DNA of 64,000 nt, from IMG/VR virus record IMGVR_UViG_3300025889_000087, positions 1-64,000 of that record, one strand, 5' to 3'. The notes under the pieces were generated by a model. It was not told where the DNA came from and did not search any database. It saw nothing but the letters and a program-made list of their open reading frames with translations. Position numbers and translations under genes: made by a program. Within the stretch, counting starts at the first letter, position 1, and each line of letters begins with the position of its first letter. This DNA is from a virus. This document shows positions 6,948 through 57,807 of the stretch, piece after piece.

Positions 6948-7370
6948 TCACTCCCGCTGAGGTCGCCAAAAGGTCGTGGAGCGACCGAGGCGGGACACGC
7001 CGAGAACGGTCGCGCCTTCGGTGCCGTCATAATCGCTGACGGTGTTCTTGTGAACCGCCACGTTGCCGAGAACCTGTCCGTCGCCAAGCACCCCATCGTC
7101 GCTCTTGGAGATGGCCGCCGTGGCCGCAAATGACTTTGCGAGGCTGAGGTCTCCTTCAAGCACCGACAGGGCGTTCTTCGCTGCCTCAAGGTGCTTTGCT
7201 ACGTCGTCCATGTTGTTGTGCGCAATTGCTTGCTGCATGGCCTCCATGCTCGCAACGGCACGACGCGCCATGGGGTCCATCTTCTGAATCAAGCCGAAGT
7301 CAAGGAAGCCTTCTGTCATCTCAACCAATCCTTGGGAAGCCACTATTGCACATGAAGGTTCCGTCTTCAA
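6948..7370 (-). CDS. Unknown small protein downstream of portal, 140 aa
   Basis: Mostly helical, alanine-rich (residues about 35-95), with a basic C-terminus ending FWRPQRE. The longest frame starts with a TTG that overlaps the portal stop as TTGA; an ATG at 7319 is the main alternative. The position directly after portal fits a small head protein, but no family was recognised. Confidence 0.6.
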   Translation of the reverse strand: MKTEPSCAIVASQGLVEMTEGFLDFGLIQKMDPMARRAVASMEAMQQAIAHNNMDDVAKHLEAAKNALSVLEGDLSLAKSFAATAAISKSDDGVLGDGQVLGNVAVHKNTVSDYDGTEGATVLGVSRLGRSTTFWRPQRE

Positions 7371-9163
7371 AAGCCCATTCTACGGTCCATATTATTCAAA
7401 CGCTCGTCCACGTTGCGTTCTTCGGGGGACTTTTCGGAATCACGCCGATCCTGCACCGTTTGACTCATGTGATGTTCACCCTCAAAGCGGTTCACGCGGT
7501 CAGGTGATTGGCCCGCACTACGGCGGCTATTGAGCCCCAATTGGGCATATCCCTGACGACGCAGGGGCGTAAGGTCTGTTCCGTTCGTGGTCGTCAGTGC
7601 TTCGGGAACCGGCACTGCGCCGTGGACGGCATCAGTCACAATGCGCTTTACGAGGTCGTCTGCCGTAAGCACGGGGAGCCAATCGCTCGTTTGCACTGGT
7701 CCACCGCCCGGTGGCGCAGGACCGCCTTCAGGACCCGGCCCCATTTGGGGAGGTGGGGGAGGTGCCTCCTTGTAGTCGAATTGGAGGTAGCCATCATCGT
7801 CACGCAGCCGCGCGTCATAGCCCGCCTGCTTCATTTGCAGCATATTGCGAATCGCCATTTCGTCGCGGCGCATCTGCATGATGTCGTCCTCTTCCTCGTG
7901 CGGCTTCAGGGTCATTTCCCATTCATCAATTTGAAATGCGGCGAGAAGAAGAGGGAACAGACGCCCGTTGTAGACGTTCTGACTGGCTGCAAGAGCGCGG
8001 TTTGTGACGACAATTTGCATACCCTCGTTGTTCAGGCCACCGCCGCTCACGTCGTTCATGAAGACGTTCGACACACCGTAAAAGGACGAGATGCGCTGCC
8101 GAATGTCGTCCTTAATTGGGATGTATTGCAGTTCCTCCAACGTGTCCATCATGCGAACGTATTCCAAACCACCGCGACCGCTCTCCGTTTCGACACCAAC
8201 TGTGGGGATGTATTGTGGGTCGCGCTCCAAATGCTCCTGAATGTTGCGAGCCGTGCGCTCGACCGTTTCAAGGTTGGACGACTTGATAACCATAACACCG
8301 CGAGGCATACGTCGCTTCTGATACGCCGCATACACATAATTGTCCATGGCGATTAGCGTGTTCACCTGACGCCACAGGGTCGCCACAGGCGAACGCCCAT
8401 ACAGTTTAGACGGCGACCATTTGCTCAAATGAATGACTTCGCCCTCGGTGTAGACCTGACCCGAACCAACACCTGCGAGATTCATGTAGTGGATAGGGAC
8501 GACGGGGAGACCAGTCTTCGGGCACTTCTCGTCCTTGTCGCTTGTGCGGAACGACCTATCGAGCAGACTCGTGTATTGCTTTCCACCCTTGACGCCACGC
8601 TTGTCCGCAACAATGCGCATGAAGATGGGGTCAGCGCGGGTAATTTCCTTGATGCGGTAGAACTGCGGCTTCCCCGTGTTCGGATCGACGAAGTATTCCT
8701 TGGTGAGAATGATGTATGCGTCGTCCACAATGTTGAGGTCCATTTCCACTTCGCGCATGACTTCAAGGAAAGACTGACCCATTCTGTTGTCTTCATTGAG
8801 CAGGGCATTGGCGTATTCCAATTGCCCATCATCGGCTCCACGCACTTCACCACCACACTTCATGCAATTGTCCACGTCACGCTTGTGCTCATTCTCACAT
8901 TCACGACACTTCTTGACGAACTTCGCTCGCCACTGCCAACCTTTCCTGAACGTCTCCGTTGCCAAGTGGTTGAGAATCGAGCGCAGAACGAGGCATTCGT
9001 ATGAAGCCGCATAAAGTGCGGGAATGGTGATGCCCTGAAGCAACGCCGGTTCCTGCACACCAGTGGTGAACAGGGGCATTTGCGGAGTCGGCGTTTCGTG
9101 CCGCTCCATGTCTACGCCAATTGCGGCAAAGAGACGATCAACCCGCTTCTTCTCATTCACCAT
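7367..9163 (-). CDS. Portal protein
   Basis: The portal forms the dodecameric ring at the capsid vertex through which DNA is packaged and ejected. The 598-residue length and the central pattern (EGEVIHLSKWSPSKLYGRSP, then VATLWRQVNTLIAMDNYVYA) are typical of the family, as is the helical crown segment that follows, with polar residues and PQYIPTVGVETESGRGGLEY. An unusual insertion near residues 85-105 holds four cysteines in a zinc-ribbon arrangement (CRECENEHKRDVDNCMKC). The C-terminus is Pro-rich (EAPPPPPQMGPGPEGG). The gene lies two genes downstream of the large terminase, the usual order, and overlaps its upstream neighbour by 11 bases. Confidence 0.88.
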   Translation of the reverse strand: MVNEKKRVDRLFAAIGVDMERHETPTPQMPLFTTGVQEPALLQGITIPALYAASYECLVLRSILNHLATETFRKGWQWRAKFVKKCRECENEHKRDVDNCMKCGGEVRGADDGQLEYANALLNEDNRMGQSFLEVMREVEMDLNIVDDAYIILTKEYFVDPNTGKPQFYRIKEITRADPIFMRIVADKRGVKGGKQYTSLLDRSFRTSDKDEKCPKTGLPVVPIHYMNLAGVGSGQVYTEGEVIHLSKWSPSKLYGRSPVATLWRQVNTLIAMDNYVYAAYQKRRMPRGVMVIKSSNLETVERTARNIQEHLERDPQYIPTVGVETESGRGGLEYVRMMDTLEELQYIPIKDDIRQRISSFYGVSNVFMNDVSGGGLNNEGMQIVVTNRALAASQNVYNGRLFPLLLAAFQIDEWEMTLKPHEEEDDIMQMRRDEMAIRNMLQMKQAGYDARLRDDDGYLQFDYKEAPPPPPQMGPGPEGGPAPPGGGPVQTSDWLPVLTADDLVKRIVTDAVHGAVPVPEALTTTNGTDLTPLRRQGYAQLGLNSRRSAGQSPDRVNRFEGEHHMSQTVQDRRDSEKSPEERNVDERLNNMDRRMGF

Positions 9164-10400
9164 TGTTTAGCCCCCTCTCCATGAGTTCGTCTTCGCTGAC
9201 GCCCCACGACTTGAGCAGGGACACTTGGGTGTGAGGCCCTGCCGTGTGATAAGCGATGTAGCGACCCGCCCATTCGTCGCCATTTGCACAACGAAGCAAT
9301 AGGTTGGCTTCGGGCTTTGCATTGTTGAGGTGCGGGAGGGCCACTTCGCAGGCTTTCAAGACCGCGCGGTCGCCCTCAATGACGAACTGCTCGCCCTCCC
9401 ACATGATGTTGCCCACGCCCAATGTGTGCTTCAACACGTCGGCATAATCCGGCCCACGCTTTGAGTCGAAAGGCAGAATCAAGCGGGGAGCATTGAGCGG
9501 CGTCATGCCGATTTCACCATCCATGTCCCACAAGTTGGCGATAAACCTGTCCACCGTCTTGAGCAGGATGGGTGGTTTGGTGCGACCATAGTAGAACGAG
9601 CGGTCGTCAGACCGACGACCCTTGCCGACGTTATGAATGTCGTAAAGGAAGCCGTGGGATTTGATGAGCGCGGATATTTCCGCCGACGTGCCTTGGAGGC
9701 CATGGGAAGTCATGGTTTGCACGTTCATATCACCGTATGCAGCAATCAGATCCGCAGCCTTTGCGAGAATGCCGCGCTCACGGCGGCTAAGGCGTGATTC
9801 TGCGCTCAACCTATCGCCCCATTCCTTCCATACGTCCTCTCGTTCTTCAGTCGTTTGTGCCCGACGAGAGGCTGCCACTGCTTTTCTGAACGGCAATTCC
9901 AAACGGTCAGGGTGCTGCGCGAGCATAGTGAAGTCTTGGTCACGGACGGAAATATGGCTCCAATCTTCCGTCTTCCACCAATCAAAATCAGAAAGAATGG
10001 CGTCCTGCTCCTGCTTCAACAAATTGAGCAGGCGAGGCACCATGTCCCCTTCGCCGTTCTCTTCCATAATTTTGATGATGGATTGGCCGTCTGTGCCGAA
10101 ATTGTCAATGAAGAAGGTCTTGGACACTTGCACGCGCGGGGTTGCGGTTGTGCCCGGTTGTTCCGTCGGAATGCCTTCGTTTGCGTTGCCCGTTAAGCCA
10201 GTGATTTGCGAACCGGCGGTAGCCTCGGGCGGCATAGCGTCGGCGGGTGTTTGTGCCTGAGCCTGCTCCTGCTCCCGCTCAGCCTCTTCCAATTCTTTCC
10301 GTTTGGTTTGCACTTTGGTGTCCGCAGCCTGCGTTAGCGGGTTTGCACCCATCAATTTCAGCAACATTCCCATATTTGACGCAGACACTTCTACCCTCAT
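9153..10400 (-). CDS. Terminase-portal intergenic protein with C-terminal LAGLIDADG-like domain
   Basis: The N-terminal 100 residues are a charged coiled coil with a linker (KRKELEEAEREQEQAQAQ). The middle is unrecognised. The last 130 residues look like a LAGLIDADG homing-endonuclease core: FIANLWDMDGEIG (286-298) in the place of the active-site helix, LGVGNIMWEGEQFVIEG (about 324-340), then ALPHLNNAKPEANLLL (354-369), which matches the family's LxPxLxxKxxQAxLxL signature. ATG at 10400 forms an ATGA overlap with the terminase stop and follows GGTGGG, so it is preferred to an upstream start at 10427. It may be a structural protein that captured an endonuclease domain. Confidence 0.65.
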   Translation of the reverse strand: MRVEVSASNMGMLLKLMGANPLTQAADTKVQTKRKELEEAEREQEQAQAQTPADAMPPEATAGSQITGLTGNANEGIPTEQPGTTATPRVQVSKTFFIDNFGTDGQSIIKIMEENGEGDMVPRLLNLLKQEQDAILSDFDWWKTEDWSHISVRDQDFTMLAQHPDRLELPFRKAVAASRRAQTTEEREDVWKEWGDRLSAESRLSRRERGILAKAADLIAAYGDMNVQTMTSHGLQGTSAEISALIKSHGFLYDIHNVGKGRRSDDRSFYYGRTKPPILLKTVDRFIANLWDMDGEIGMTPLNAPRLILPFDSKRGPDYADVLKHTLGVGNIMWEGEQFVIEGDRAVLKACEVALPHLNNAKPEANLLLRCANGDEWAGRYIAYHTAGPHTQVSLLKSWGVSEDELMERGLNNGE

Positions 10401-11839
10401 GCTGCCCACCCCAAACGTCGCGTCCATTCGGATCCGTCAAGCACCACGATGGCGTCTTTGAACTCCTTCGTGGCCTGCACTGAGAGGGCGAGGGCCATAA
10501 CGGTGTCGTCGTGTTTTCCGAGCGATTCCATCTTCCCGTTCGGGAGCATTGTGAACATGGACAATTCGTTCGTGAGCACGTCCATAAGGCGGCGCGTAGC
10601 CCCGTCGTCTTTGTAGGGGAGAATCAAATGCCGTTGCTCAAAGTGCAATTGCAGCGTGTGGATGACGGCTTCCTTCTTCATGCGACTCATGGTGAACGGC
10701 TTAACGGGAAGGTCGCTGATTTCCTTTAGCACCTGATGAAATGCTTGGGCGAAATTGTTCGTTTCAAGTTCGATAATCACGGGATTATACCGTGTATTTA
10801 ATTCAATGATTTTATCAATTTGCGAACTGAAATCCATGCCCTTCTCGCGGTGCATCCACACCACACGCTTGTGCTTGTTCTCATCCACGGCGAGCACGAC
10901 CATGCAGGTGTAGTCAGCGGAGCGATCGGGGCTGATAGCAGGGTCCCAACCGATGTAATAATTCACTTCCTCACGGTCTTCCTCGGGAATTGCGTAGGGG
11001 TCGAATTGAAATGCCCACGACGTGTCCTTGCATGGCTCCACCATATCTTCGGGGAACAGGCTCGCGTCACTGGCGATTGGACGACACAGGTATTCGCGCG
11101 TGAACGCAATAGAAGTCATTTCGCTACGTCGGGCCTGAAGAGCCTCAAGGCTCCATCGTTCGGGCCAAAGCGGATCGCCAGTCTGCTCACTGATAGCGGG
11201 ATATTCCTTGACCATATACCCCTTGAGCGTCTTCAGTTCTTGGTAAAGGTCGGTGTAAGAGAAGGGTGTGCCGACAATGCACATTTGCGCAGTGTGGTGA
11301 AGCACGGGCAGGAGAGCGGTGTAAAACCATGAAGCGATGTGGGCCAATTGCGTGGATGCTTCGGACGACAGAATGTCGTCAAGCACCACGATGTCGGGGT
11401 GAGCACCACGCACTGCCTTTCCGACCGACATAGCAGAAATCGAGGATTTGTTCGTCATCTTGAACTTCTGCTTCGCCCACCCACGCGAGGGCTTTAGGTG
11501 TGCGAGAACAGGCGTGGACATGATCAATTCGTCCATCTTCGCCATGTGGTCGATAGACTGATGCTGACTGTGGGAAAAGAACAGGACTTCCGTTCCGGGG
11601 TTATACGCCATTTTCCACAAAAGGTAGACGCGGTAAAACACGGATTTTCCGTGGTCGCGGGATGCAATCACGCAAGTTTTGTTGTGGCTCTCGGAGAGAT
11701 TGAACCATTCTTCATGAAAGTCTGCCAACTGGTAGCCGTCGTCCTTCCCGCATATTTCCTCAAAAAAGAACTTGAATGAACGGCGGCCCATTTCCCAATC
11801 GACTTTGTTCGCCAATTGGAGAACGGCCTCGCCGCTCAT
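10397..11839 (-). CDS. Terminase large subunit
   Basis: This is the DNA-packaging motor. Its ATPase half has Walker A ASRDHGKS (59-66) and Walker B DIVVLDD (149-155). Its nuclease half has the acidic residues of an RNase H-fold terminase nuclease: GWDPAISPDRSADYT with Asp299, IIELETNNF with Glu357/Glu359, and KHDDTVMALALS near residue 450. At 480 residues it is a normal full-length terminase. It overlaps both neighbours by four bases (ATGA), so translation is coupled through the packaging genes. Confidence 0.93.
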   Translation of the reverse strand: MSGEAVLQLANKVDWEMGRRSFKFFFEEICGKDDGYQLADFHEEWFNLSESHNKTCVIASRDHGKSVFYRVYLLWKMAYNPGTEVLFFSHSQHQSIDHMAKMDELIMSTPVLAHLKPSRGWAKQKFKMTNKSSISAMSVGKAVRGAHPDIVVLDDILSSEASTQLAHIASWFYTALLPVLHHTAQMCIVGTPFSYTDLYQELKTLKGYMVKEYPAISEQTGDPLWPERWSLEALQARRSEMTSIAFTREYLCRPIASDASLFPEDMVEPCKDTSWAFQFDPYAIPEEDREEVNYYIGWDPAISPDRSADYTCMVVLAVDENKHKRVVWMHREKGMDFSSQIDKIIELNTRYNPVIIELETNNFAQAFHQVLKEISDLPVKPFTMSRMKKEAVIHTLQLHFEQRHLILPYKDDGATRRLMDVLTNELSMFTMLPNGKMESLGKHDDTVMALALSVQATKEFKDAIVVLDGSEWTRRLGWAA

Positions 11840-17629: not shown

Positions 17630-18865
17630 TCAGCAATTCCACCTTTTCAGTGCAGCACCCTTCGGGGTGAGTTTCCCGCCCTTGCTCGTCGGGCCCTTGA
17701 CGCCGCTCATGCGGGCGCAGAACGACTTTCGCCGCTTTGCTTTCTCCGAACCGGGTTTGAGGGTAGACGGCTTCTCGGTGACGGGGGGCTTCAGGTTCGC
17801 GCCCTCTTCACGCTTGAACTTCGCACGGCCCTTGGCGTTGAGGCCACCCTCGCGGCTATGCCGGTTGGGGTTATAGCCGTGAAATGGCTTGTCCGATTTT
17901 TTCCGCAATACATCGGCCCATGAAATACCATTGATGTAAGACGCGGTGAACATACCTGATGGATCGGAAAGGGGCTGCTGCGGCTCACAAGCGTCCCATT
18001 CATCCAAAATGCTTTCTAACGCGGAGACGAACTCCCTGTGAATTGCGATTGATTGGCGGGCTCGTTGTTGATTGGAGGGCAATTCTTCCATCGCCCTCAT
18101 GCGTGCTTCGGGGTCCTCATAGCCCATGATGATTTTTTGCGCTCTCCCATTCAGCCATTCTTCATCCTCGGGAATGGTGTTCGTTAGGTAATGTTCAATG
18201 TTCATCTGAATGTTTTCCCAAAGTTCCGCGCAACTATACGTTTCCCAAGGGTCGAACAGATCGCGTGTGTAATCATCCAATCCTCGGATTTTCGCGCAAA
18301 AGTCGTCCGCAGCCGCAAGGGCTTTCATCCGTGCTTCTTCGCAACAAGGGTCGCCTGTATCAATACCGAGCGTGGCATCTTCGACATCTTCCCCGACATC
18401 CTCCCCGACATTTTCCAAATCAAATCCTTGATCGCCCATTGTTTGGCGGGGAAAAATAGAGCGAGAAGGCATGTAGTCGAGTCCCTCTTTCAACAAATCT
18501 TCACGAATGTAAAACGCCTTCGCCAGTGTGAGGCACGAATCACAGTCGCACATTTTCACCATGGTTGGCTTCCCTCCGACTCCTTGCGGTTTTGAACGCT
18601 TGCGGCGTGTCGCCGCCTTCTTCTCCTGCGGACTCATGCTACGGGTGGTTTTAGGGGTGTCGGAGGACACCTTCTTTGATGGGCGGCACTTCGGGTAGCC
18701 CCGAGAGGAAGTGTCGGCCTCATCACGCCCGCAGGGCGGGTGCTTCCCGTCCTTGTCCTTCCGGCTTACGTCCACCCATTCTTCCTTGAACCAACGCCGA
18801 AGGTCCTTTTCAATCAAAAGTTCGGAGAATGGGGCGGTCAATCTTTGCCCCCCTTCCTTTTCCAC
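17630..18865 (-). CDS. Cys-rich protein with two marine-phage-type Lys/Arg domains
   Basis: Residues about 20-85 form a basic domain (DLRRWFKEEWVDVSRKDKDG, then CGRDEAD, YPKC and a KKAATRRKRSK end). Residues about 330-411 form a second one (GGLNAKGRAKFKREEGANLK, then KAKRRKSFCARMSG). Both are common in marine phage proteins of unknown function; I believe the second is catalogued as DUF6321. The centre contains CDCDSC and CC clusters and the phrase GMFTASYINGISWADVLRKK (from about residue 304), shared with the protein encoded at 27163-29316. The longest frame begins GTG at 18865; a TTG at 18841, after AGGGGGG and overlapping the previous stop as TTGA, is an attractive alternative. Confidence 0.75.
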   Translation of the reverse strand: MEKEGGQRLTAPFSELLIEKDLRRWFKEEWVDVSRKDKDGKHPPCGRDEADTSSRGYPKCRPSKKVSSDTPKTTRSMSPQEKKAATRRKRSKPQGVGGKPTMVKMCDCDSCLTLAKAFYIREDLLKEGLDYMPSRSIFPRQTMGDQGFDLENVGEDVGEDVEDATLGIDTGDPCCEEARMKALAAADDFCAKIRGLDDYTRDLFDPWETYSCAELWENIQMNIEHYLTNTIPEDEEWLNGRAQKIIMGYEDPEARMRAMEELPSNQQRARQSIAIHREFVSALESILDEWDACEPQQPLSDPSGMFTASYINGISWADVLRKKSDKPFHGYNPNRHSREGGLNAKGRAKFKREEGANLKPPVTEKPSTLKPGSEKAKRRKSFCARMSGVKGPTSKGGKLTPKGAALKRWNC

Positions 18866-19035
18866 CCGCCGCCTTTGCTCTTATACCACTTCGCGGCCCA
18901 ACCGTTTGCGTAGGCTGAGGGATAGACCTTGAACTTGGATCGGGCCTTCGATTTTGCCTGCGACCACAGGCCGGGGTTGGTCGGAGCATTTTCGCCCTTA
19001 ACAACGGACCAAGCGATTTCAAAGGCTTCGTTCAT
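18838..19035 (-). CDS. AFDxAW-tagged small basic protein (DUF5872-like)
   Basis: The first 15 residues, MNEAFEIAWSVVKGE, are the same N-terminal peptide as in the array at 31-39.7 kb. The remaining 50 residues read WSQAKSKARSKFKVYPSAYA then NGWAAKWYKSKGGGWKRKGG, a short basic domain common in marine phage and giant-virus proteins (I believe DUF5872), probably nucleic-acid binding. ATGA overlap with the upstream gene couples their translation. Confidence 0.8.
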   Translation of the reverse strand: MNEAFEIAWSVVKGENAPTNPGLWSQAKSKARSKFKVYPSAYANGWAAKWYKSKGGGWKRKGGKD

Positions 19036-19262
19036 TGGTATTCCTCCCTTATATCATCAGGAAAGCCATAGGGGTCGTGAATCACTCTTCCGGTCAGGTC
19101 CACAAGTGAAGACTCAACGTGTTCATTCGGGTCGAAGCAATCAGCGCAAATGATCGTATCGCCATCCAAGTCGATGAAATCATCGGTTTCCTTTCCGCAC
19201 ACTTCACAATAATACGGGTCGCTCTTGACGACAGACCAAGCGGCTTCAAAGGCTCCGCTCAT
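19032..19262 (-). CDS. AFDxAW-tagged zinc-ribbon protein, 76 aa
   Basis: It starts MSGAFEAAWSVVKSDPYY, the shared N-terminal peptide, and continues as a zinc ribbon with CEVCGKETD and CADCFD (four cysteines in two CxxC pairs). The tail is acidic. It overlaps the HMG-CoA lyase gene upstream and the DUF5872-like gene downstream by ATGA on both sides. The zinc ribbon gives no specific activity. Confidence 0.8.
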   Translation of the reverse strand: MSGAFEAAWSVVKSDPYYCEVCGKETDDFIDLDGDTIICADCFDPNEHVESSLVDLTGRVIHDPYGFPDDIREEYQ

Positions 19263-20107
19263 GCAATTGCTACGATGGCTTCCCCGTCTTTATGCGTGTC
19301 GGCTCGTATGTCGTTCACCACAGACAGTGCAGCGTCAAGATTACCCACGCCGGTATTCGCGCCCCATGCTCGCAAATGATGGACAAGAACTTCAGTCGCA
19401 AGATTCGCCCCGCTTTTTTCAGCAAACGGGCAGCCACCAAGACCACCGATAGAGGAATCGAATTGACTGATGCCTGCAAAGATGCCTGCACGAACCAGTC
19501 GGAGAGGCTTTGCTACATCACCCCTGTGGTGAAGATGGAGGGCAGGTTCGACTCCTGCTTCTCGTGCGAGTTGGGCGAAGAGCACCACGTCTTTCTCAGT
19601 CCCAACGCCCACAGTGTCGGCAAACACAACCGTGTTCCCGAACATAGCAGCATCGCGCACCACTGATCGAATAGTGCCTTCGGAAAACACACCGGAATAC
19701 GGAGAGCCAAACGCCATAGAAACGTAGACACGCACGTTTTCCTTGGGGTAGCCGTTGAGGAACGTCCACAATTCATGGACTTTTTCGCTGCGCGTCTTCC
19801 CCATGTTTTTCATGCTGAAATGCTCACAGGGGCTCAAAACGATATTGATTTTCTCGACACCGACTTTGAGAGCCCGCTCAAAACCTCGGCGGTTCATCAC
19901 CAACGCTGAGCCACGACCGCTAAACACTTCTTCTGCGTCTGCCATTTGCGGCACCAATTTTGGGTGCGCAAATGACACTTCTTCGACGTGAACCAAACCC
20001 GCGTCGTAAAGGCAGCGAATCAATTCTCGCTTTTTTTCGCTCGGCACAAAGTCGGACAACGATTGCAGACCGTCACGAGGACCCACCTCGTAGACGGTCA
20101 CGCGCAC
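19259..20107 (-). CDS. Hydroxymethylglutaryl-CoA lyase homologue
   Basis: HMG-CoA lyase splits HMG-CoA into acetyl-CoA and acetoacetate. The 282 residues cover the whole TIM-barrel enzyme: YEVGPRDGLQ (6-15, catalytic Arg11/Asp12), SFAHPKLVPQMADAEEV, SMAFGSPYSG, FADTVGVG, LHLHHRGD with His191/His193 in the metal-binding HxH, and the family signature GGLGGCPFAEKSG with catalytic Cys226. The metal/catalytic residues recognisable here are all present; HDT after the second His is changed to HRG. The start is GTG. It sits between virion genes with 4- and 10-base overlaps, so it is a stable operon member. In archaea HMG-CoA is also the mevalonate precursor, so the enzyme could redirect isoprenoid carbon or serve leucine catabolism. 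Confidence 0.85.
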   Translation of the reverse strand: MRVTVYEVGPRDGLQSLSDFVPSEKKRELIRCLYDAGLVHVEEVSFAHPKLVPQMADAEEVFSGRGSALVMNRRGFERALKVGVEKINIVLSPCEHFSMKNMGKTRSEKVHELWTFLNGYPKENVRVYVSMAFGSPYSGVFSEGTIRSVVRDAAMFGNTVVFADTVGVGTEKDVVLFAQLAREAGVEPALHLHHRGDVAKPLRLVRAGIFAGISQFDSSIGGLGGCPFAEKSGANLATEVLVHHLRAWGANTGVGNLDAALSVVNDIRADTHKDGEAIVAIA

Positions 20108-20535
20108 GAGAAGGGCCCCCTCAGACGGTTATAGACGAATGCTGCTTTAGGGGGAATTGCAGAATACCACTGTGCAAGCATTGGCGTTTGGGAATAGGAC
20201 AGGGACATTGGCTTGAATGCTTCTTGGAGAGCGATAAGATGCTCCGCGACTTCCTCACGCGGGACATTTGGTTGGGCCCATTCTCCTTCGGTGGAGAGAT
20301 CGAGAATGCACATTCGATAGAGAATGATGGCTCCGTTGGCTTCAGCCGCGCAATCGTCATGCGTATGCAGGCCGAACGCATCCAAGCCCTCTTTCCACAC
20401 CTTCACGACCTGCTCCAAGGCATCGCAGAAAAGGAGGGCGTCTTGAACCGTCTGAATGTTGTCGGACGACGCAATCAGCCGACCATGATCAGAATCCTTG
20501 AGCATGAGGGCCGCAATTGAGCGGTAGTCCGACAT
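20098..20535 (-). CDS. Unknown protein, 145 aa
   Basis: Not recognised. It is helical and mostly polar, with FGLHTHDDCAAEANGAIILY and LSYSQTPMLAQWYSAIPPKA as the most distinctive segments. ATG at 20535 is chosen because GAGGAAGG lies just upstream; the frame extends further but would overlap the neighbour. The last codons overlap the HMG-CoA lyase start by 10 bases, so the two are probably translated together. Confidence 0.65.
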   Translation of the reverse strand: MSDYRSIAALMLKDSDHGRLIASSDNIQTVQDALLFCDALEQVVKVWKEGLDAFGLHTHDDCAAEANGAIILYRMCILDLSTEGEWAQPNVPREEVAEHLIALQEAFKPMSLSYSQTPMLAQWYSAIPPKAAFVYNRLRGPFSCA

Positions 20536-20572
20536 AACCCTTCCTCGCATCATATGGTAATGAGGGAAGCGG

Positions 20573-21283
20573 TCATCCCTCGTCAAGAACCCCCGCTTCG
20601 GTGAGAGCATTTCGCAGGACGCGCCATTCTTCAGGGGACTTCTCGGAGAAGTGGGCCTGAATCACGGTCAGGACGTTCACCTGCTGCGACTCTTCAATGG
20701 TCGTAGCAGCCGTCAGGTATTCCGCCAAGTCGGAGAGCGTGTCGCGGATTTCACGGTGCAATTTCACCGCGGTGTCCAAGCCCTTGAAGTCAAGAATGCC
20801 CGACTCGACGCGCTCCGCATTCATCAAATCCATGTGATCGTTGAACACGTCGTTCAGCCGGTTCAGGTTCCGCTCAGTCCGCCGCATGGCGTCACTGACG
20901 CTCGTAATCGCGTTGGGAATGTTCTCAATCTGCGCTTGGCGTTGAATGATGGGCGCGGCGTGCCGTTCCATGTGGTGAGACACTGCCGTTTCCGTCATTT
21001 CCAATTCGACGGCCATGTCTGCAATACCGGCAATACCTCCGAGCACGGCTGCCTCAATTGCACTGCGCTCAGGATGGGTGCAAATGGGGCATTCAGAATT
21101 GCTTGCATTGTGGTATTCGCCGGAATGGCGGCGCATGTGTCGATGAGCCGTTCCTTCAGCCCACGACTGGTCGCGATCCAAATCCCCGACTTCAAGCAGA
21201 CCGATTCGCACGTTCTGCTCGTATTCATCACGGCGCGGGTGTTGGCAGAAGGGGCAATTGCGCCGAGTCTGCCTCCCCGTCAT
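20573..21283 (-). CDS. Duplicated zinc-finger/HTH protein, candidate small terminase or regulator
   Basis: The N-terminal 110 residues hold two copies of one motif: CPFCQHPRRDEYEQNVRIG ending in HRHMRRH, and CPICTHPERSAIEAAVLGG ending in VSHHMERH. Each resembles a Cys-Cys...His-His zinc unit wrapped round a helix-turn-helix (MAVELEMTETAVSHH). The rest is a long helical rod (about 120-205). DNA-binding head plus oligomerising coiled coil is the design of many small terminase subunits, and no other small terminase is visible in the virion operon. A transcription regulator is the alternative. Confidence 0.7.
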   Translation of the reverse strand: MTGRQTRRNCPFCQHPRRDEYEQNVRIGLLEVGDLDRDQSWAEGTAHRHMRRHSGEYHNASNSECPICTHPERSAIEAAVLGGIAGIADMAVELEMTETAVSHHMERHAAPIIQRQAQIENIPNAITSVSDAMRRTERNLNRLNDVFNDHMDLMNAERVESGILDFKGLDTAVKLHREIRDTLSDLAEYLTAATTIEESQQVNVLTVIQAHFSEKSPEEWRVLRNALTEAGVLDEG

Positions 21284-23324: not shown

Positions 23325-24053
23325 TCAAAGCAAGTCTACGGTATCAATCACTGCTCTTTCCACATTCAATCCAAATTGCGCAGCAATTGCTTCTACGTTA
23401 GTCGCCACCGCGGCTTTCCTCAGCCTCCGCAATTCATGTTGAAAAGGGAGGACTAAGGGGTGCTGCCGCTTGAAGCCATGCTCCCACATGTTCGCTGCCT
23501 GAAGATCCCACCAAAGGTCCATTTTATTCAGCAAAAGGCAGACCACCTTCGGTTTGAACATCTTCGCTCGTTTGCGTTGAACGCGGTTCAGCGTTTCGGG
23601 AATGTGTTTGTTCGTTATCAAGTCCACAATGTATTGAAAACCCGCCACGGCTTCTTGGCGAAGGTATTCCGAATAGAGAATCCGATGGTCGATGACATAG
23701 AACACAATGCTCACGTTGCGTTCGACCATATCTTCAGCCCACAGGTTCCAATAACGGCTTTCACCGCCAACGTCGGCTGAAGTCACGGGGACCTTCCGCC
23801 CATTCCACCGGACCTGCTTCTTTGTGCTATGAGGGCGATCCACCTTCCCGTGCCGCACGGGGTGGGTTGTCCGCAATTCGTGAGGAATGGGCTCGATGTC
23901 GCCGGGAACGGTCAAGAATTGGTCGAGAGTCGTTTTACCGCTAAGGGAGGGGCCATAGACACCAAAGCGGTGAGGGCGAATGATGCGATAGAGGTATGCC
24001 GCCAATTGCGCCGAGCCCATCAGGACGTGGCCGACGAAGATCCAAGACGACAT
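23325..24053 (-). CDS. Ras/Arf-like small GTPase with N-terminal membrane segment
   Basis: A P-loop GTPase with its motifs in order: G1 GPSLSGKT (34-41), G3 DVGGE (94-98), and G4 NKMD (176-179) at the end of a hydrophobic strand (KVVCLLLNKMDL). The length of 242 fits a single small-GTPase domain. Residues 4-25 (WIFVGHVLMGSAQLAAYLYR) could be a membrane anchor. The G3 form DVGGE, where Ras has DTAGQ, is closer to Arf and bacterial MglA than to translation GTPases. It is next to two small membrane proteins in the same run, so a membrane-surface switch is plausible. GTPases of this class are very unusual in viruses. Confidence 0.75.
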   Translation of the reverse strand: MSSWIFVGHVLMGSAQLAAYLYRIIRPHRFGVYGPSLSGKTTLDQFLTVPGDIEPIPHELRTTHPVRHGKVDRPHSTKKQVRWNGRKVPVTSADVGGESRYWNLWAEDMVERNVSIVFYVIDHRILYSEYLRQEAVAGFQYIVDLITNKHIPETLNRVQRKRAKMFKPKVVCLLLNKMDLWWDLQAANMWEHGFKRQHPLVLPFQHELRRLRKAAVATNVEAIAAQFGLNVERAVIDTVDLL

Positions 24054-24912: not shown

Positions 24913-25992
24913 TCAGTGATATAGCACAGACCACCCAACCGCGAATGCGTCTTGGGATTTGCCGAACAGTTTTCCCTGCTCCATGTATCGTTGTTGTGGG
25001 TAGTGCTTGAACCAGTCCAAACCGGGAATGTTGGCATACGCAATCATTTCAGGTCGAGGGCCTCGTTCCGCTCCTTTGCCCCCGCTTCTGTCCATTCGTG
25101 TATTCAACACAGTGTCGAACCCCTCGGCGTCGTAAAACGGGCGAGCAAATGCTGAATTGAAAGCAACAACCGGAAGCCCCTGCCTCGCCAAGCCCCCCGC
25201 CCATTCGGCCATTGGTTGCTGAAGATCGTCAAAGCCACCCGGCGTGTAGGTCCCCCGTTCCATGTAATACGGCGAGTCAAGAACGAGGAAATCCTCTTCG
25301 GGGATAATGAGGCCGTTTTCCATCACTTCTTCAATGCCCATGTTGCGCAAATCCCAACCCTGCATCAATGGTGCGTAGTGTGAATAATCCCAAGATGGGG
25401 GATATTTGATGGGGCTTCCGTATGGGAGATCGGTGTAATTTCCGAAATCACCCCGCGCACCCCCCTGCCAACCTGATTGTTGCATCATCAGCCACATTTG
25501 CGCCATCAGCATTTTCTCTTCGGGACTCCTTTCTTCTTGAGGGGGCAGGTTGAGCATAAGATCATTCACTGAGCCCTGACTCGGGGGCCATGAACCCATC
25601 CCCGTCGGCGTTCCGCCGCGAAGCCTCTCATAGTATGTCTCCTTGTCCACGACATCATCTTCATTGGTGAATTGCGACCAATCAACGCTAAATCCGTCAG
25701 GATTCTGAATGTGAGCGAACGCATTTATGAGGTTCGGGTTGAGGTCGGACAACAAAGCCCGTTCGGGTTGCAGGTTCAGGGGAATGTTCCCACCGCCAAG
25801 GAATGGATCGACAAGGCGACGATGACGACCCACACGATTGAATGCGTCACGGAGGGGGCCAATGTAGTGAGGTCGGCCCTTGCTTCCTTGCCACCTTAGC
25901 GGGGAAGGGACGCGGGTTTTTCCCGTAATGTCTTGCATGGCTGCCCACGCTGCTTTTTCAGGTGTCATTTTGCGACCGCGAACTTCCATCAT
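24913..25992 (-). CDS. D12-class (Dam-like) adenine-N6 DNA methyltransferase
   Basis: It carries the class order: PLRWQGSKGRP (31-41) in the place of the RYxGGK motif, SAM-binding VDPFLGGGN (61-69), LSDLNPNLINAF, and the catalytic tetrad as DSPYY (239-243), where the usual DPPY has Pro changed to Ser. A long insertion between motifs contains the target-recognition region. The last residues, DAFAVGWSVLYH, resemble the AFDxAW peptide found elsewhere, although at the C-terminus. ATG at 25992 or 25989 follows TGGGGGA and is preferred to an upstream start that overlaps the previous gene. Confidence 0.82.
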   Translation of the reverse strand: MMEVRGRKMTPEKAAWAAMQDITGKTRVPSPLRWQGSKGRPHYIGPLRDAFNRVGRHRRLVDPFLGGGNIPLNLQPERALLSDLNPNLINAFAHIQNPDGFSVDWSQFTNEDDVVDKETYYERLRGGTPTGMGSWPPSQGSVNDLMLNLPPQEERSPEEKMLMAQMWLMMQQSGWQGGARGDFGNYTDLPYGSPIKYPPSWDYSHYAPLMQGWDLRNMGIEEVMENGLIIPEEDFLVLDSPYYMERGTYTPGGFDDLQQPMAEWAGGLARQGLPVVAFNSAFARPFYDAEGFDTVLNTRMDRSGGKGAERGPRPEMIAYANIPGLDWFKHYPQQRYMEQGKLFGKSQDAFAVGWSVLYH

Positions 25993-26002
25993 AATTCCCC
26001 CA

Positions 26003-27166
26003 TCATGCCTTCGTCCCCGCCCAATTTGGCCCAAACTGCAATTGCATGGCCCGCTCCATCTCGTCTTCGGTCAATTGCCGTTTGCCGTTTTTATCATGGT
26101 GTAGATAAGCGATGGTGACTGTCGGGTCCCAACAGGCACGGCAACCAAGGTCGCCCGTGCGCGGGTCAATGTTTGAATTGCAGTTCGACTTTGTTCCCCT
26201 CAGTGTTTTGGGACAAACGACCGAGTTCCTGCCCACCGCGTCGTATGTGGATGCTGAAATGCGCGGATGGCGCAGCAAATCAGCGATATTCGTTCCTGCG
26301 TATTCCGCATCGGGGCTGAGGGTGTCCATGGTTTCCCGTCCGGGCAACGAAATGCGCACGTTCACGTTTGATGGGAAAGCGTCGTCTTCCCACCCGCGAG
26401 CGTCGAGGAATTGCTCAAGGAAAGGCAATTGGCGAGTCGCCATCCAAAACCGCATATTCTCATGGGGCAGGGCTTGAGCCGCCAGATCGCTCACCTGCGA
26501 ATAGGAGCCGGGTCCCCGTGCGTCACCGGCAGTGAAAACGCGCACTGGAACACCGCTTGCCGATTCACGCCGCGAGATGTTTTGACTTGCGTCGTTATAG
26601 AGGACTTCTTGCATTCCCGACATGAAGGGATCAGAATCACCGAGGGCTTGGTCTATTCTCGCCCACAGGTTGTTTTGGACGTTGTTCATCGGATAACGGT
26701 TTTCACAAGCGTAGCAGTGTCCACACGCTGAGTCAGGGTCATTCCGCGTGGCGTAAATGCAGGCTTCGGGTGGGAAATCCATGATACCAATACCGGGCAT
26801 GGCCTCGGTGGTCGTGAAGCGCGAAAAGGCATCCCGTGCTCCCTGCTTCGTCGCGGGCAGGTTCAAGTCCCGAGCGACTTCAGACCACGGGGCAATTTCA
26901 CGACCTTCAAGTGGATAATCGACCAAACGCGGCTTCCCGTCGTCGTCACGCAACCAATCCCGCCATTTCCCTTGATTTGCGTTAAGCCAATCGAAGATTT
27001 CCTGATTACCACCACCGCCCTGTGCATATGTTCCCGACTGTTGCGGTGTCGGGTGGCTCCCGCCATACCGCTTATCCCACCAAAACATCTCATCCGGATC
27101 GCCCAATGCCTTCAGCAACACCCCGACGAGGGGCTCAAGGGCAATTGAACGGAGAATTATGCTCAC
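26003..27166 (-). CDS. Gp88-like cysteine-rich phage protein
   Basis: The layout follows the phage Gp88 family (PF17338 in my recollection): an opening cysteine cluster (CIYATRNDPDSACGHCYAC), a paired N-rich helix, a VRVFTAGDARGPGSYSQVSD segment equivalent to the family's RxHxSGDF, the FWMATRQ strand, and a closing cluster (VCPKTLRG, NCNSN, GCRACWD) followed by VTIAYLHH. The family is of unknown function; the cysteines suggest metal or Fe-S binding. The start is GTG, overlapping the upstream stop as GTGA. It lies between a methyltransferase and a metallopeptidase-motif protein. Confidence 0.65.
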   Translation of the reverse strand: MSIILRSIALEPLVGVLLKALGDPDEMFWWDKRYGGSHPTPQQSGTYAQGGGGNQEIFDWLNANQGKWRDWLRDDDGKPRLVDYPLEGREIAPWSEVARDLNLPATKQGARDAFSRFTTTEAMPGIGIMDFPPEACIYATRNDPDSACGHCYACENRYPMNNVQNNLWARIDQALGDSDPFMSGMQEVLYNDASQNISRRESASGVPVRVFTAGDARGPGSYSQVSDLAAQALPHENMRFWMATRQLPFLEQFLDARGWEDDAFPSNVNVRISLPGRETMDTLSPDAEYAGTNIADLLRHPRISASTYDAVGRNSVVCPKTLRGTKSNCNSNIDPRTGDLGCRACWDPTVTIAYLHHDKNGKRQLTEDEMERAMQLQFGPNWAGTKA

Positions 27167-29403: not shown

Positions 29404-30975
29404 ATGATGCCGAACGGTCAGCAGCCAATCTTCATTCTCCGCGAAGGAACCGACCGGAAGCACGGTCGTGTTGCACAGTCAAACAACATCGCCGCGGCCC
29501 GTGCCGTGGCTGACGCCGTGCGAACCACCCTTGGTCCCAAAGGCATGGACAAAATGTTGGTTGATGAGGGCGGCGATGTCATCATCACCAATGACGGCGC
29601 GACCATTCTCCGCGAAATGGACATCGACCACCCCGCGGCCAAGATGATCATTGAAGTCAGCAAAACGCAGGAGCAGGAATGTTTTGACGGGACAACCACC
29701 GCCGTCGTGCTTAGCGGTGAATTGCTGAAGCAGGCTGAGGAATTGCTCTCACAGGGCATTCACCCGACCACCATTTGCGACATTTTCCGCAAGGTCGGGA
29801 CCGAGGCCGTGAAGGCGTTATCCGGCTTCAGCAGCCATTCCGACGAAGCCATGTTGCTTAGCGTGGCTCGCACCGCCCTCACCGGAAAGTCGTCGGGCGA
29901 CCTGAAAGAGCACCTCGCCTCCATTTGCGTTGAAGCCGTTGAGCGACTCGACAAGCAGGACGGCTCAATCAACCTTGACGAAATTATGGTGGTGAAGGCC
30001 CTCGGTGGAGAAGCGACGGACTCATCCCTCATCCAATCCATCGTTCTCGACAAGGAACGCGCTCACCCGTCCATGCCGAAGACGCTGACGAACGCTCGTA
30101 GGGCCATCTGCGTCCTGTCCTGTCCGCTCACAGTGCAGACTACCACTATGGATGCAAACATTCAGATCACCGACCCGTCTCAAATTGCCGCGTTCTTGGA
30201 GCAGGAAGAGGCTTCTTTGCGCGAAATGGTGGATAAAATCGCCTCGTCAGGCGCGAAAGTCGTTGTGTGTCAGAAGGAAATTGACGACCTCGCCAAGCAC
30301 TACCTCGCCAAGCGACACATCATCGGCGTGGAGAAGGTCAAGAAGTCGGACATCGAAGCCCTGTCCCGCGCCACTGGCGCGGCCATTGTTGGCAACCTCG
30401 ATGACCTCGACACTGCCGCCCTCGGAACCTGCGACAACGTAATGGAGCAACGGGTGGGAGAATTGCCCATGATGTTCTTTGAGGGCTACGAAAAGAACCC
30501 ACCAGTCACACTCGTGCTTCGTGGCGGCACTGCGCCGTTCATTGAAGAAGTCGAGCGAGCCTTTGATGATGCCGTGGGCGTCGTCAAGGTGGCCCACGAA
30601 GACGAACAAGTCGTCCCCGGTGGTGGTTCCGTGTTCGCTGCCCTCGCTCAGTCCATCCTCACGAATGCAAACACCAAGGTGGGGCGCGAACGCATGGCTG
30701 CCGAGGCTTTCGCTGACGCGCTTCTCGTAATCCCACGCACTCTCGTGGAGAACGCGGGTCTTGATCCGGTGGACGAGATTATGACACTGCGTTCGGCCCA
30801 CGCTGAAGGGAAGGTGACGTGGGGTGTGGACGTGTTCGCGGGTGGCCTCATGGACATGGCCGAGAGCGACGTGTGGGAGCCACTGCGCGTTGTGTCGCAG
30901 GCCATCAAGTCAGCCGTCGAAACGTCAATCATGATTCTGCGCATTGACGACGTGATTTCGTCCAAGAAGGCGTGA
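29404..30975 (+). CDS. Group II chaperonin (thermosome) subunit
   Basis: A full-length ATP-driven folding chamber subunit, 523 residues. Motifs: [13 protein letters not shown] (42-54), NDGATIL (63-69), [14 protein letters not shown] (95-108) with the ATP-site Asp95, VVPGGG (about 403-408), WGVDVFAGG near residue 475. The usual EVGDGTTT is ECFDGTTT here, a substitution beside the nucleotide site. The C-terminus lacks the Gly/Met tail of many cellular thermosomes. It is the only plus-strand gene between two minus-strand operons and ends four bases from the stop of the array. Viral thermosomes are known from marine archaeal viruses and probably assist capsid folding. Confidence 0.95.
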
Positions 30976-40778: not shown

Positions 40779-45971
<5,193 letters not shown>

Positions 45972-55630: not shown

Positions 55631-56392
55631 ATGTCCAAGAAGGAGTTCGGCGCGTTTGTCGAGAACATGAGCGATGATGAATTGAGAGCCGTCACTGGCG
55701 TGGGTGCCGTCCTGCGCGATTTCGGCACGGCTATGGAGGCCGAGTGGCAAAGCCGCTTCGGTCGCCTGCTCAACGCCGATGAGCGGAAGGAGAACGGCGG
55801 AAAGCCGAACGTGGTTGCGAATCCAGTCGTGGACATCGAGGTCCCCGGCATCATTTCCCTCATGCTCCGCCCCGGAGGGGACAACAACAAGACCCGCGGC
55901 AACGGCTACGCCAACGACGTGGGGCTTTCGGACAAGGTGAAGACGGGGAACGTCCCACCCACCCTGCTCGCTGAGATCCTCGTGGACAAGATGGCGACCA
56001 TGCTCGGCGGCAACATCGCTGCGAAGGCTCTCGTTGAATTGCAGGAGGCGCTGCGAGCCTGCATGAAGGTGGAGGACGGGTCCTTCACCTTCGACAAAAA
56101 GGCAGCCCCTCCCCTCCAACACCCCGTCGAGGTGGCCGAATGGATGGCCGCTCTCAAGACGGAGTTCGTCGGAACGACCGCAGGCGCAACGCACGTCAGC
56201 ATGGAAGTCGTTCCCATCCCAATGTCCACCCGCGAAGAGGCCGTCGGCGTGCCGGAAGGCGGCGAGCACATCCCCGTGCCCGCCCTTGAAGGAGTCTCGG
56301 AGAAGGGCATGACGGGGGGATTGAGTCCCTCAGACGCCGACGAGGGCGGCTCCCCCGTTCACGACGAAGCACAGGGCGTGGTCCTATGGTGA
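55631..56392 (+). CDS. Unknown protein, 253 aa
   Basis: Not recognised. It starts MSKKEFGAFVENMSDDELRA; an in-frame ATG at 55592 would translate the promoter element and is rejected. The centre is helical (LLAEILVDKMATMLGGNIAA, then KALVELQEALRACMK), the C-terminus acidic and disordered. First gene after promoter copy 5 and cotranscribed with the methyltransferase. Confidence 0.65.
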   Translation: MSKKEFGAFVENMSDDELRAVTGVGAVLRDFGTAMEAEWQSRFGRLLNADERKENGGKPNVVANPVVDIEVPGIISLMLRPGGDNNKTRGNGYANDVGLSDKVKTGNVPPTLLAEILVDKMATMLGGNIAAKALVELQEALRACMKVEDGSFTFDKKAAPPLQHPVEVAEWMAALKTEFVGTTAGATHVSMEVVPIPMSTREEAVGVPEGGEHIPVPALEGVSEKGMTGGLSPSDADEGGSPVHDEAQGVVLW

Positions 56393-57807
56393 GGCAAATT
56401 GTTCTCGGTGATTGCATCGACCGGCTGATGAACGACGTTGAGGCAGGTTCGGTCGATTTGGTCTATCTCGACCCACCGTTCTTCTCAAACCGCCAATACG
56501 AGGTGATTTGGAAGGATCGCTTTGAGACCGCTTCCTTCCGTGACCGATGGGAGGGGGGCATTGAAACCTATGTGTCGTGGCTCGTGGACCGCCTGCGCGT
56601 GTGCCACCGTGTGCTCAAGGACACGGGCGTTCTCGTGTGTCATCTCGATTGGCACTCATCGCATTACATCAAGGTCGAATTGGACCGCCTGTTCGGCTAT
56701 TCGCACTTCGTGAATGAAATTGTGTGGCGCAGGATTCAGGCCCCGAAGGGCATGAACCCCACGTCCTTCGACGTGGCCGACGACCGCCTTCTCGTTTATC
56801 GCAAAGGAGAGAAATACACCTTCAACGTGCAATACCGCCCGCTCGACAAATACGAGGTGGAGAAGACGTTCCCATCGGTGGACGCAGCAGGCCGTCGCTA
56901 TTCGACACGCCCACTGATTGCGTCGAACACGCAGGGAGGAAAGAGCCCGATGTATGAATACAAGGGATTCACCCCGCCTCGGCGTTGGCTGATGACCGAG
57001 GAAAACCTTCGGGAAATAGATCGGAAAGGCCGCATCCACTGGCCTGATAGGGAGGGCGGACTTCCTCGGCAAATCCAATACGCCGACGAATCCAAAGGTA
57101 AGCGAATCGACACGGTGTGGAATGACATCAAGCCCATTCCCTCTCAATCCAAGGAGCGCATGGGCTATCCGACTCAGAAGCCGCTCGCCCTCTTGGAGCG
57201 CATCATCAAGACGTTCACCACGAACGACTCACTGGTTCTCGACCCGTTCTGTGGTTGCGGGACCACCATTCACGCAGCCCACAGGCTGCACCGTAATTGG
57301 ATTGGTATTGACGTTAGCCCCGTCGCCGTGGACCTGATGCGCCGCCGGTTGGTGGAGCACGAGAACCTGATGGCCGGACGCGACTTCACCATTGAGGGCA
57401 TTCCGACGAGCGAGGACTCGCTGCTTGAGATGAACCCGACTCAGTTCGCAGACTGGTGCTGCCAACGCCTTGGAGGAACGCCGAACCCCGTTCGCGTTGG
57501 GGACATGGGCGTCGATGGATGGGACCGCGACGGCGACCCTATCCAAGTCAAGCAGCACAAGAAGGCCATTGGTCGCAACGTCGTGGACAATTTCAACGCG
57601 GCAATTCGCCGCGAGGGAAAGACGAAGGGCAGCATCGTGGCCCTGTCCTTTGGGAAGGGCGCACGGGGAGAAGCCGCACGTCTGCTTCGTGAGGAAGGGT
57701 TGGAGATCGTGTTGGTCGAGGCAACAGACCTGCTCAGCGAACAGGAGAAGTCCTTCCAAGAGTTTCTCAGCAACCACGACTTCGGTCTCGGACGGTGGGT
57801 ATCGTGA
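56386..57807 (+). CDS. DNA methyltransferase fused to Mrr-like nuclease domain
   Basis: The N-terminal 330 residues are a beta-class amino methyltransferase: YLDPPF (27-32, catalytic DPPF) precedes the SAM-binding DPFCGCGTT (286-294), with PTQKPLALLERII between them. The C-terminal 120 residues, GVDGWDRDGDPIQVKQHK with Asp384 and Gln387-Lys389, fit the D-(x)-QxK active site of Mrr/type-IV-like restriction endonucleases, followed by a typical strand (GSIVALSFGKGA). Methylation and cleavage in one chain suggests a single-gene modification/restriction enzyme. It overlaps the preceding gene by 7 bases and the next by GTGA. Confidence 0.85.
   Translation: MVRQIVLGDCIDRLMNDVEAGSVDLVYLDPPFFSNRQYEVIWKDRFETASFRDRWEGGIETYVSWLVDRLRVCHRVLKDTGVLVCHLDWHSSHYIKVELDRLFGYSHFVNEIVWRRIQAPKGMNPTSFDVADDRLLVYRKGEKYTFNVQYRPLDKYEVEKTFPSVDAAGRRYSTRPLIASNTQGGKSPMYEYKGFTPPRRWLMTEENLREIDRKGRIHWPDREGGLPRQIQYADESKGKRIDTVWNDIKPIPSQSKERMGYPTQKPLALLERIIKTFTTNDSLVLDPFCGCGTTIHAAHRLHRNWIGIDVSPVAVDLMRRRLVEHENLMAGRDFTIEGIPTSEDSLLEMNPTQFADWCCQRLGGTPNPVRVGDMGVDGWDRDGDPIQVKQHKKAIGRNVVDNFNAAIRREGKTKGSIVALSFGKGARGEAARLLREEGLEIVLVEATDLLSEQEKSFQEFLSNHDFGLGRWVS

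Follow-up and report, generated by a model that had tools for sequence, protein, structure and literature searches.

The Magrovirales have been described with a gene set of terminase, portal protein, family B DNA polymerase, clamp-loader-like AAA ATPase and chaperonin in a genome of ~90–100 kb (PMC10768690), and they have been linked to the Poseidoniales, marine archaea (PMC10768690, PMC10160649). In 2023 HMGCL was included among the auxiliary metabolic genes (AMGs) of magroviruses, and magrovirus AMGs were called sporadic in distribution (PMC10160649); in the ICTV profile of the Aoguangviridae, HMG-CoA lyase exemplifies the modulation of host metabolism (PMC10768690). An initial sequence-only reading of the DNA studied here held that no role of this enzyme in a virus had been described; these two publications contradict it. 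Another virus-encoded relative is the HMGL-like protein of Klosneuvirus KNV1, a giant virus of eukaryotes: it has the HMGL fold (A0A1V0SKU2, 282 aa, TM-score 0.87) and is 26% identical.

The window analyzed here, a stretch of 64,000 nucleotides, is part of a magrovirus-like virus record of 96,109 bases. The record carries the terminase, portal, family B DNA polymerase, clamp-loader-like AAA ATPase and chaperonin together, and by this gene content the virus is an archaeal tailed virus of the Magrovirales type. By analogy with the literature on this virus group, its host would belong to the Poseidoniales. The Aoguangviridae and other magroviruses share the order, by gene content, and the same annotated enzyme, assigned to host-metabolism modulation or leucine degradation. 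The published magrovirus HMG-CoA lyases are known by annotation, and the likeness rests on annotation and gene content rather than on the sequence of the type record (ON649702).

The HMG-CoA lyase family (HMGL) gene is a complete ORF with a stop codon (Table 1). It is encoded on the minus strand, a detail that the earlier reading had left out; read on the plus strand, this interval is interrupted by stops. A chance ORF can be excluded because the protein matches the HMGL-like family of Pfam (4.7e-15), the hydroxymethylglutaryl-CoA lyase family of NCBIfam (2.2e-57, 194.5 bits) and human HMGCL, the closest solved structure by sequence (2cw6, 6.6e-38), because relatives occur on at least 157 IMG/VR contigs, and because the dN/dS ratio between the window and its nearest relative, contig L015, is 0.08. 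The gene is under purifying selection.

Table 1. Positions of the viral HMGL gene, its active-site codons and surrounding genes in the window.
Feature	Position	Strand	Remarks
Viral HMGL of type 1 (HMG-CoA lyase family)	19259..20107	-	282 aa, GTG start; profile and structure matches
R11 and D12 codons (human Arg41, catalytic; Asp42, metal)	20072..20077	-	unchanged across 65 viral and 32 cellular proteins
H191-L192-H193 codons (human His233 and His235, metal)	19529..19537	-	followed by viral-specific H194 and two-residue insertion
GGCPFA loop with C226 (human Cys266)	19421..19438	-	alignment
Small ORF, AFDxAW start, weak zinc-finger-like match	19032..19262	-	overlaps HMGL stop (ATGA)
Small ORF, AFDxAW start, partial DUF5872 match	18838..19035	-	profile match
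DUF5872/DUF6321 protein, directly after insertion site	17630..18865	-	relatives near HMGL in 32 viral loci
170-aa ORF, function unknown, upstream of HMGL	20098..20610	-	adjoins DUF6321 gene in relatives without HMGL here
Terminase large subunit (context)	10397..11839	-	same strand as HMGL; profile match
Portal protein (context)	7367..9163	-	same strand as HMGL; profile match
Thermosome-type (group II) chaperonin (context)	29404..30975	+	profile match

The gene had been placed in a virion operon, translationally coupled to virion genes and expressed late. The gene does overlap its neighbours: its stop codon shares an ATGA with the start that follows (19262/19259), and it has 10 bp in common with the preceding ORF. 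However, the directly coupled genes, the small AFDxAW-tagged ORF downstream and the 170-aa ORF upstream, are of unknown function, and the portal and terminase genes lie on the same strand 7–13 kb further downstream. The 'virion operon' status is therefore only partly demonstrated, and late expression is suggested only by strand and neighbour overlap. A recognisable metabolic enzyme was not found among the HMGL neighbours, and the neighbours that recur across viral loci provide no metabolic partner.

Several other features of the record deserve mention. The DUF5872 match is split across two overlapping minus-strand ORFs in different frames (Table 1), likewise in L015; either the gene is split or frameshifted, or the assembly is in error. 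A GTPase-like protein (23325–24053, minus; GPSLSGKTTL) gave no Pfam or PHROGs match; in 21 related viral loci, relatives of it are found close to HMGL. Between 13104 and 39593 on the minus strand, 17 late-strand ORFs start with approximately M-x-AFDxAWxxxKA and continue with unrelated sequence. Fourteen of these 17 form one cluster at 31–40 kb, and the motif, which is also present in related viruses, looks like a shared N-terminal tag for sorting, packaging or processing. At least four DNA methyltransferase genes occur in one record (24913–26034, minus; 56386–57807, plus; L257:4328–6583, plus; L257:12274–13467, plus), one of them encoding a fusion with a restriction endonuclease domain of the Mrr type. 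A UvrD/RecB-type helicase protein of 1730 aa (40779–45971, plus) has a GC3 of 0.84 and lies where GC reaches 65–70%, compared with ~55% in the late region.

Within NCBIfam, hydroxymethylglutaryl-CoA lyase was by far the best family for the window protein, and all 48 type 1 members scanned matched it as well. The score of 194.5 bits falls short of the curated cut-off of 246 for NF004283, and for this reason we refer to a member of the HMGL family and not to a proven HMG-CoA lyase. A structure model built from 72 aligned sequences reached a mean pLDDT of 94.8. In a comparison of this model with the PDB the top eight entries were all HMG-CoA lyases (Z 34.3–35.6 over 262–269 residues, ~2 Å), followed among the DRE-TIM enzymes by an aldolase at Z 26.8; Foldseek agrees that HMG-CoA lyase is the closest fold. 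Isopropylmalate, homocitrate and citramalate synthases were rejected as identities, their models scoring 1.8e-05 or worse against 2.2e-57 and their structures Z ≤25.8 against ~35. Profiles and fold thus bear out the proposed membership in the HMG-CoA lyase family over the synthases, which the earlier reading had named as an alternative.

In human HMGCL the residues Arg41, Glu72, Tyr167 and Cys266 are catalytic, and Asp42, His233, His235 and Asn275 are involved in magnesium binding (PMC6941031). The viral equivalents are R11, E42, Y128 and C226 for catalysis and D12, H191, H193 and N235 for the metal. The register of the two histidines (H191/H193 = H233/H235) was taken from a profile-profile alignment, which places HxH in register with a two-residue insertion after it in the viral forms, and from a later alignment; one MAFFT alignment was shifted by two residues. 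All eight residues are invariant in 65 viral homologues (49 type 1 and 16 type 2). The active site is hence intact, with R11/D12, H191-x-H193 and C226 of GGCPFA at the residues originally named, and no relative has lost it. A lost catalytic tyrosine was also considered and rejected: human Tyr167 corresponds to the invariant viral Tyr128, not to the variable Tyr137. It is conceivable that the protein is a non-catalytic structural or regulatory part of the virion that merely retains the HMGL fold, as its late-strand position amid genes of unknown function might indicate. Against this speak the purifying selection and the fact that none of the 65 divergent homologues shows a change at any catalytic or metal position, and we consider it highly improbable. 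The conserved residues would fit an aldol lyase of the HMG-CoA lyase family that is competent in catalysis and depends on a divalent metal.

Cellular HMGLs (a comparison set of 32–80 sequences, bacterial plus the human chain) differ markedly from the viral proteins outside the active site. The human enzyme 2cw6 and those of Brucella (1ydn), Pseudomonas (2ftp) and Bacillus (1ydo) share with the viral forms the fold (Z ~35), the catalytic and metal residues and the GGCP loop, but identity is only 30–41%. The cellular GLQNE is not kept: after EVGPRDGLQ the viral proteins have no NE, E47 being replaced by L, I or M; Ser201 is Val in 65 of 65 viral HMGLs; the cellular segment HxHDTxGxALAN is HxHH[KR]G or a shorter variant; and the conserved C-terminal tail is absent. 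With these cellular-conserved features missing, the viral enzymes may differ in exact substrate, on the side facing the substrate or its acyl carrier. Type 1 (49), type 2 (16) and cellular HMGLs (32) each formed one group in a maximum-likelihood tree (97 sequences), in which the branch leading to the cellular group has a length of 1.2 and support of 100/100. Marine archaeal and bacterial lyases had been named as the relevant comparison. The tree separates the viral types from the sampled bacterial and human lyases; archaeal cellular sequences, including those of Poseidoniales, are absent from it.

Two alternatives bear on this divergence. The viral protein could be a lyase of HMGL mechanism with a rebuilt substrate or carrier side, its natural substrate being some other 3-hydroxy acid, either free or attached to a different carrier: the replacements at E47, Ser201 and the HDT..ALAN segment and the missing tail surround an invariant core, and the long branch to the cellular HMG-CoA lyases points the same way. 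However, HMG-CoA lyase is still the closest fold and sequence family by a wide margin, and the equivalents of S75 and N138 are kept in the viral proteins, so that a changed substrate seems to us a serious but less likely option. The gene could also be an ordinary host lyase that was recently captured and is carried by chance, with no importance across the lineage. HMGL genes are frequent in bacteria and mobile on plasmids, and the comparison set contained no Poseidoniales homologues. Yet the best cellular identity was ~41% among the matches listed, all of them bacterial; phage and plasmid collections gave distant matches only, at ~41% identity or less. The two viral groups are moreover well supported and apart from every sampled cellular HMGL, and together with the near-universal distribution described below this makes a recent capture unlikely.

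To limit bias in assessing the distribution, viruses were picked by terminase and portal and then scored for HMGL. The gene was present in 20 of 36 sampled records (the window counted) and in all eight records of at least 90 kb; every matched record carried exactly one copy. Of the contigs that continue past the terminase for 23 kb or more on the side in question, 13 of 15 contained HMGL, and of those that continue for less than 17 kb, 3 of 14 (Fisher p 0.0007 for contig reach against HMGL, with cut-offs picked after seeing the data and the terminase position estimated from the portal in some records). Most absences can therefore be attributed to fragmentary contigs, in contrast to the published description of magrovirus AMGs as sporadic (PMC10160649). 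In the sampled magroviruses HMGL is a near-universal, near-core gene, and the sporadic view of magrovirus metabolic genes has to be qualified for HMGL.

The type of HMGL does not always follow the virus that carries it. The terminase of the window is 71–100% identical to those of a group mostly carrying type 2 HMGL and just 38–47% identical to the terminases of type 1 viruses, but the window and L015 carry type 1. In two contigs whose terminase is 89% identical, G011 and G001, the gene order is the same and the 170-aa ORF adjoins the DUF6321 gene with no HMGL between. G011 instead has a type 2 HMGL, 43% identical, ~25 kb from its terminase and beyond the chaperonin gene; the end of the G001 contig falls inside the chaperonin gene. 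These comparisons show that HMGL has been exchanged between viruses. Apparently one type was lost and the other acquired at a different position, a replacement suggesting that types 1 and 2 can stand in for each other functionally. We found no mention in the open papers available of the viral–cellular divergence, the two exclusive types, the near-universality or the swap, though this does not prove that none exists.

The products of HMG-CoA lyase are acetyl-CoA and acetoacetate. In leucine breakdown HMG-CoA is the final CoA intermediate ahead of this cleavage, and it is also the precursor of mevalonate. HMG-CoA synthase, HMG-CoA reductase and a carboxyltransferase-type acyl-CoA carboxylase were all absent from 28 large records; with these partner pathway genes missing, the substrate would be a host metabolite. 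We favour the reading that the viral HMGL is an active lyase cleaving host HMG-CoA, to which we assign a probability of roughly 55%. The viral enzyme would convert host HMG-CoA to acetyl-CoA and acetoacetate; as HMG-CoA arises in both leucine breakdown and mevalonate synthesis, this would make acetyl units available and at once deplete the precursor of isoprenoid lipids in archaea. By this route the virus may divert mevalonate or leucine carbon, as the sequence-only reading had proposed. A more far-reaching picture, in which an old HMGL family of the magroviruses' own, near-core and present in two exclusive, exchanged forms, has altered its substrate specificity and reshapes the acetyl-CoA and isoprenoid metabolism of archaea that are abundant in the surface ocean, is offered here tentatively, and we hold it to be rather improbable as a whole. 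One metabolic enzyme kept by nearly all these viruses would mark a host step that is repeatedly altered by infection; this step would concern either leucine carbon and acetyl-CoA or, at the HMG-CoA/mevalonate branch point, the membrane lipids of archaea.
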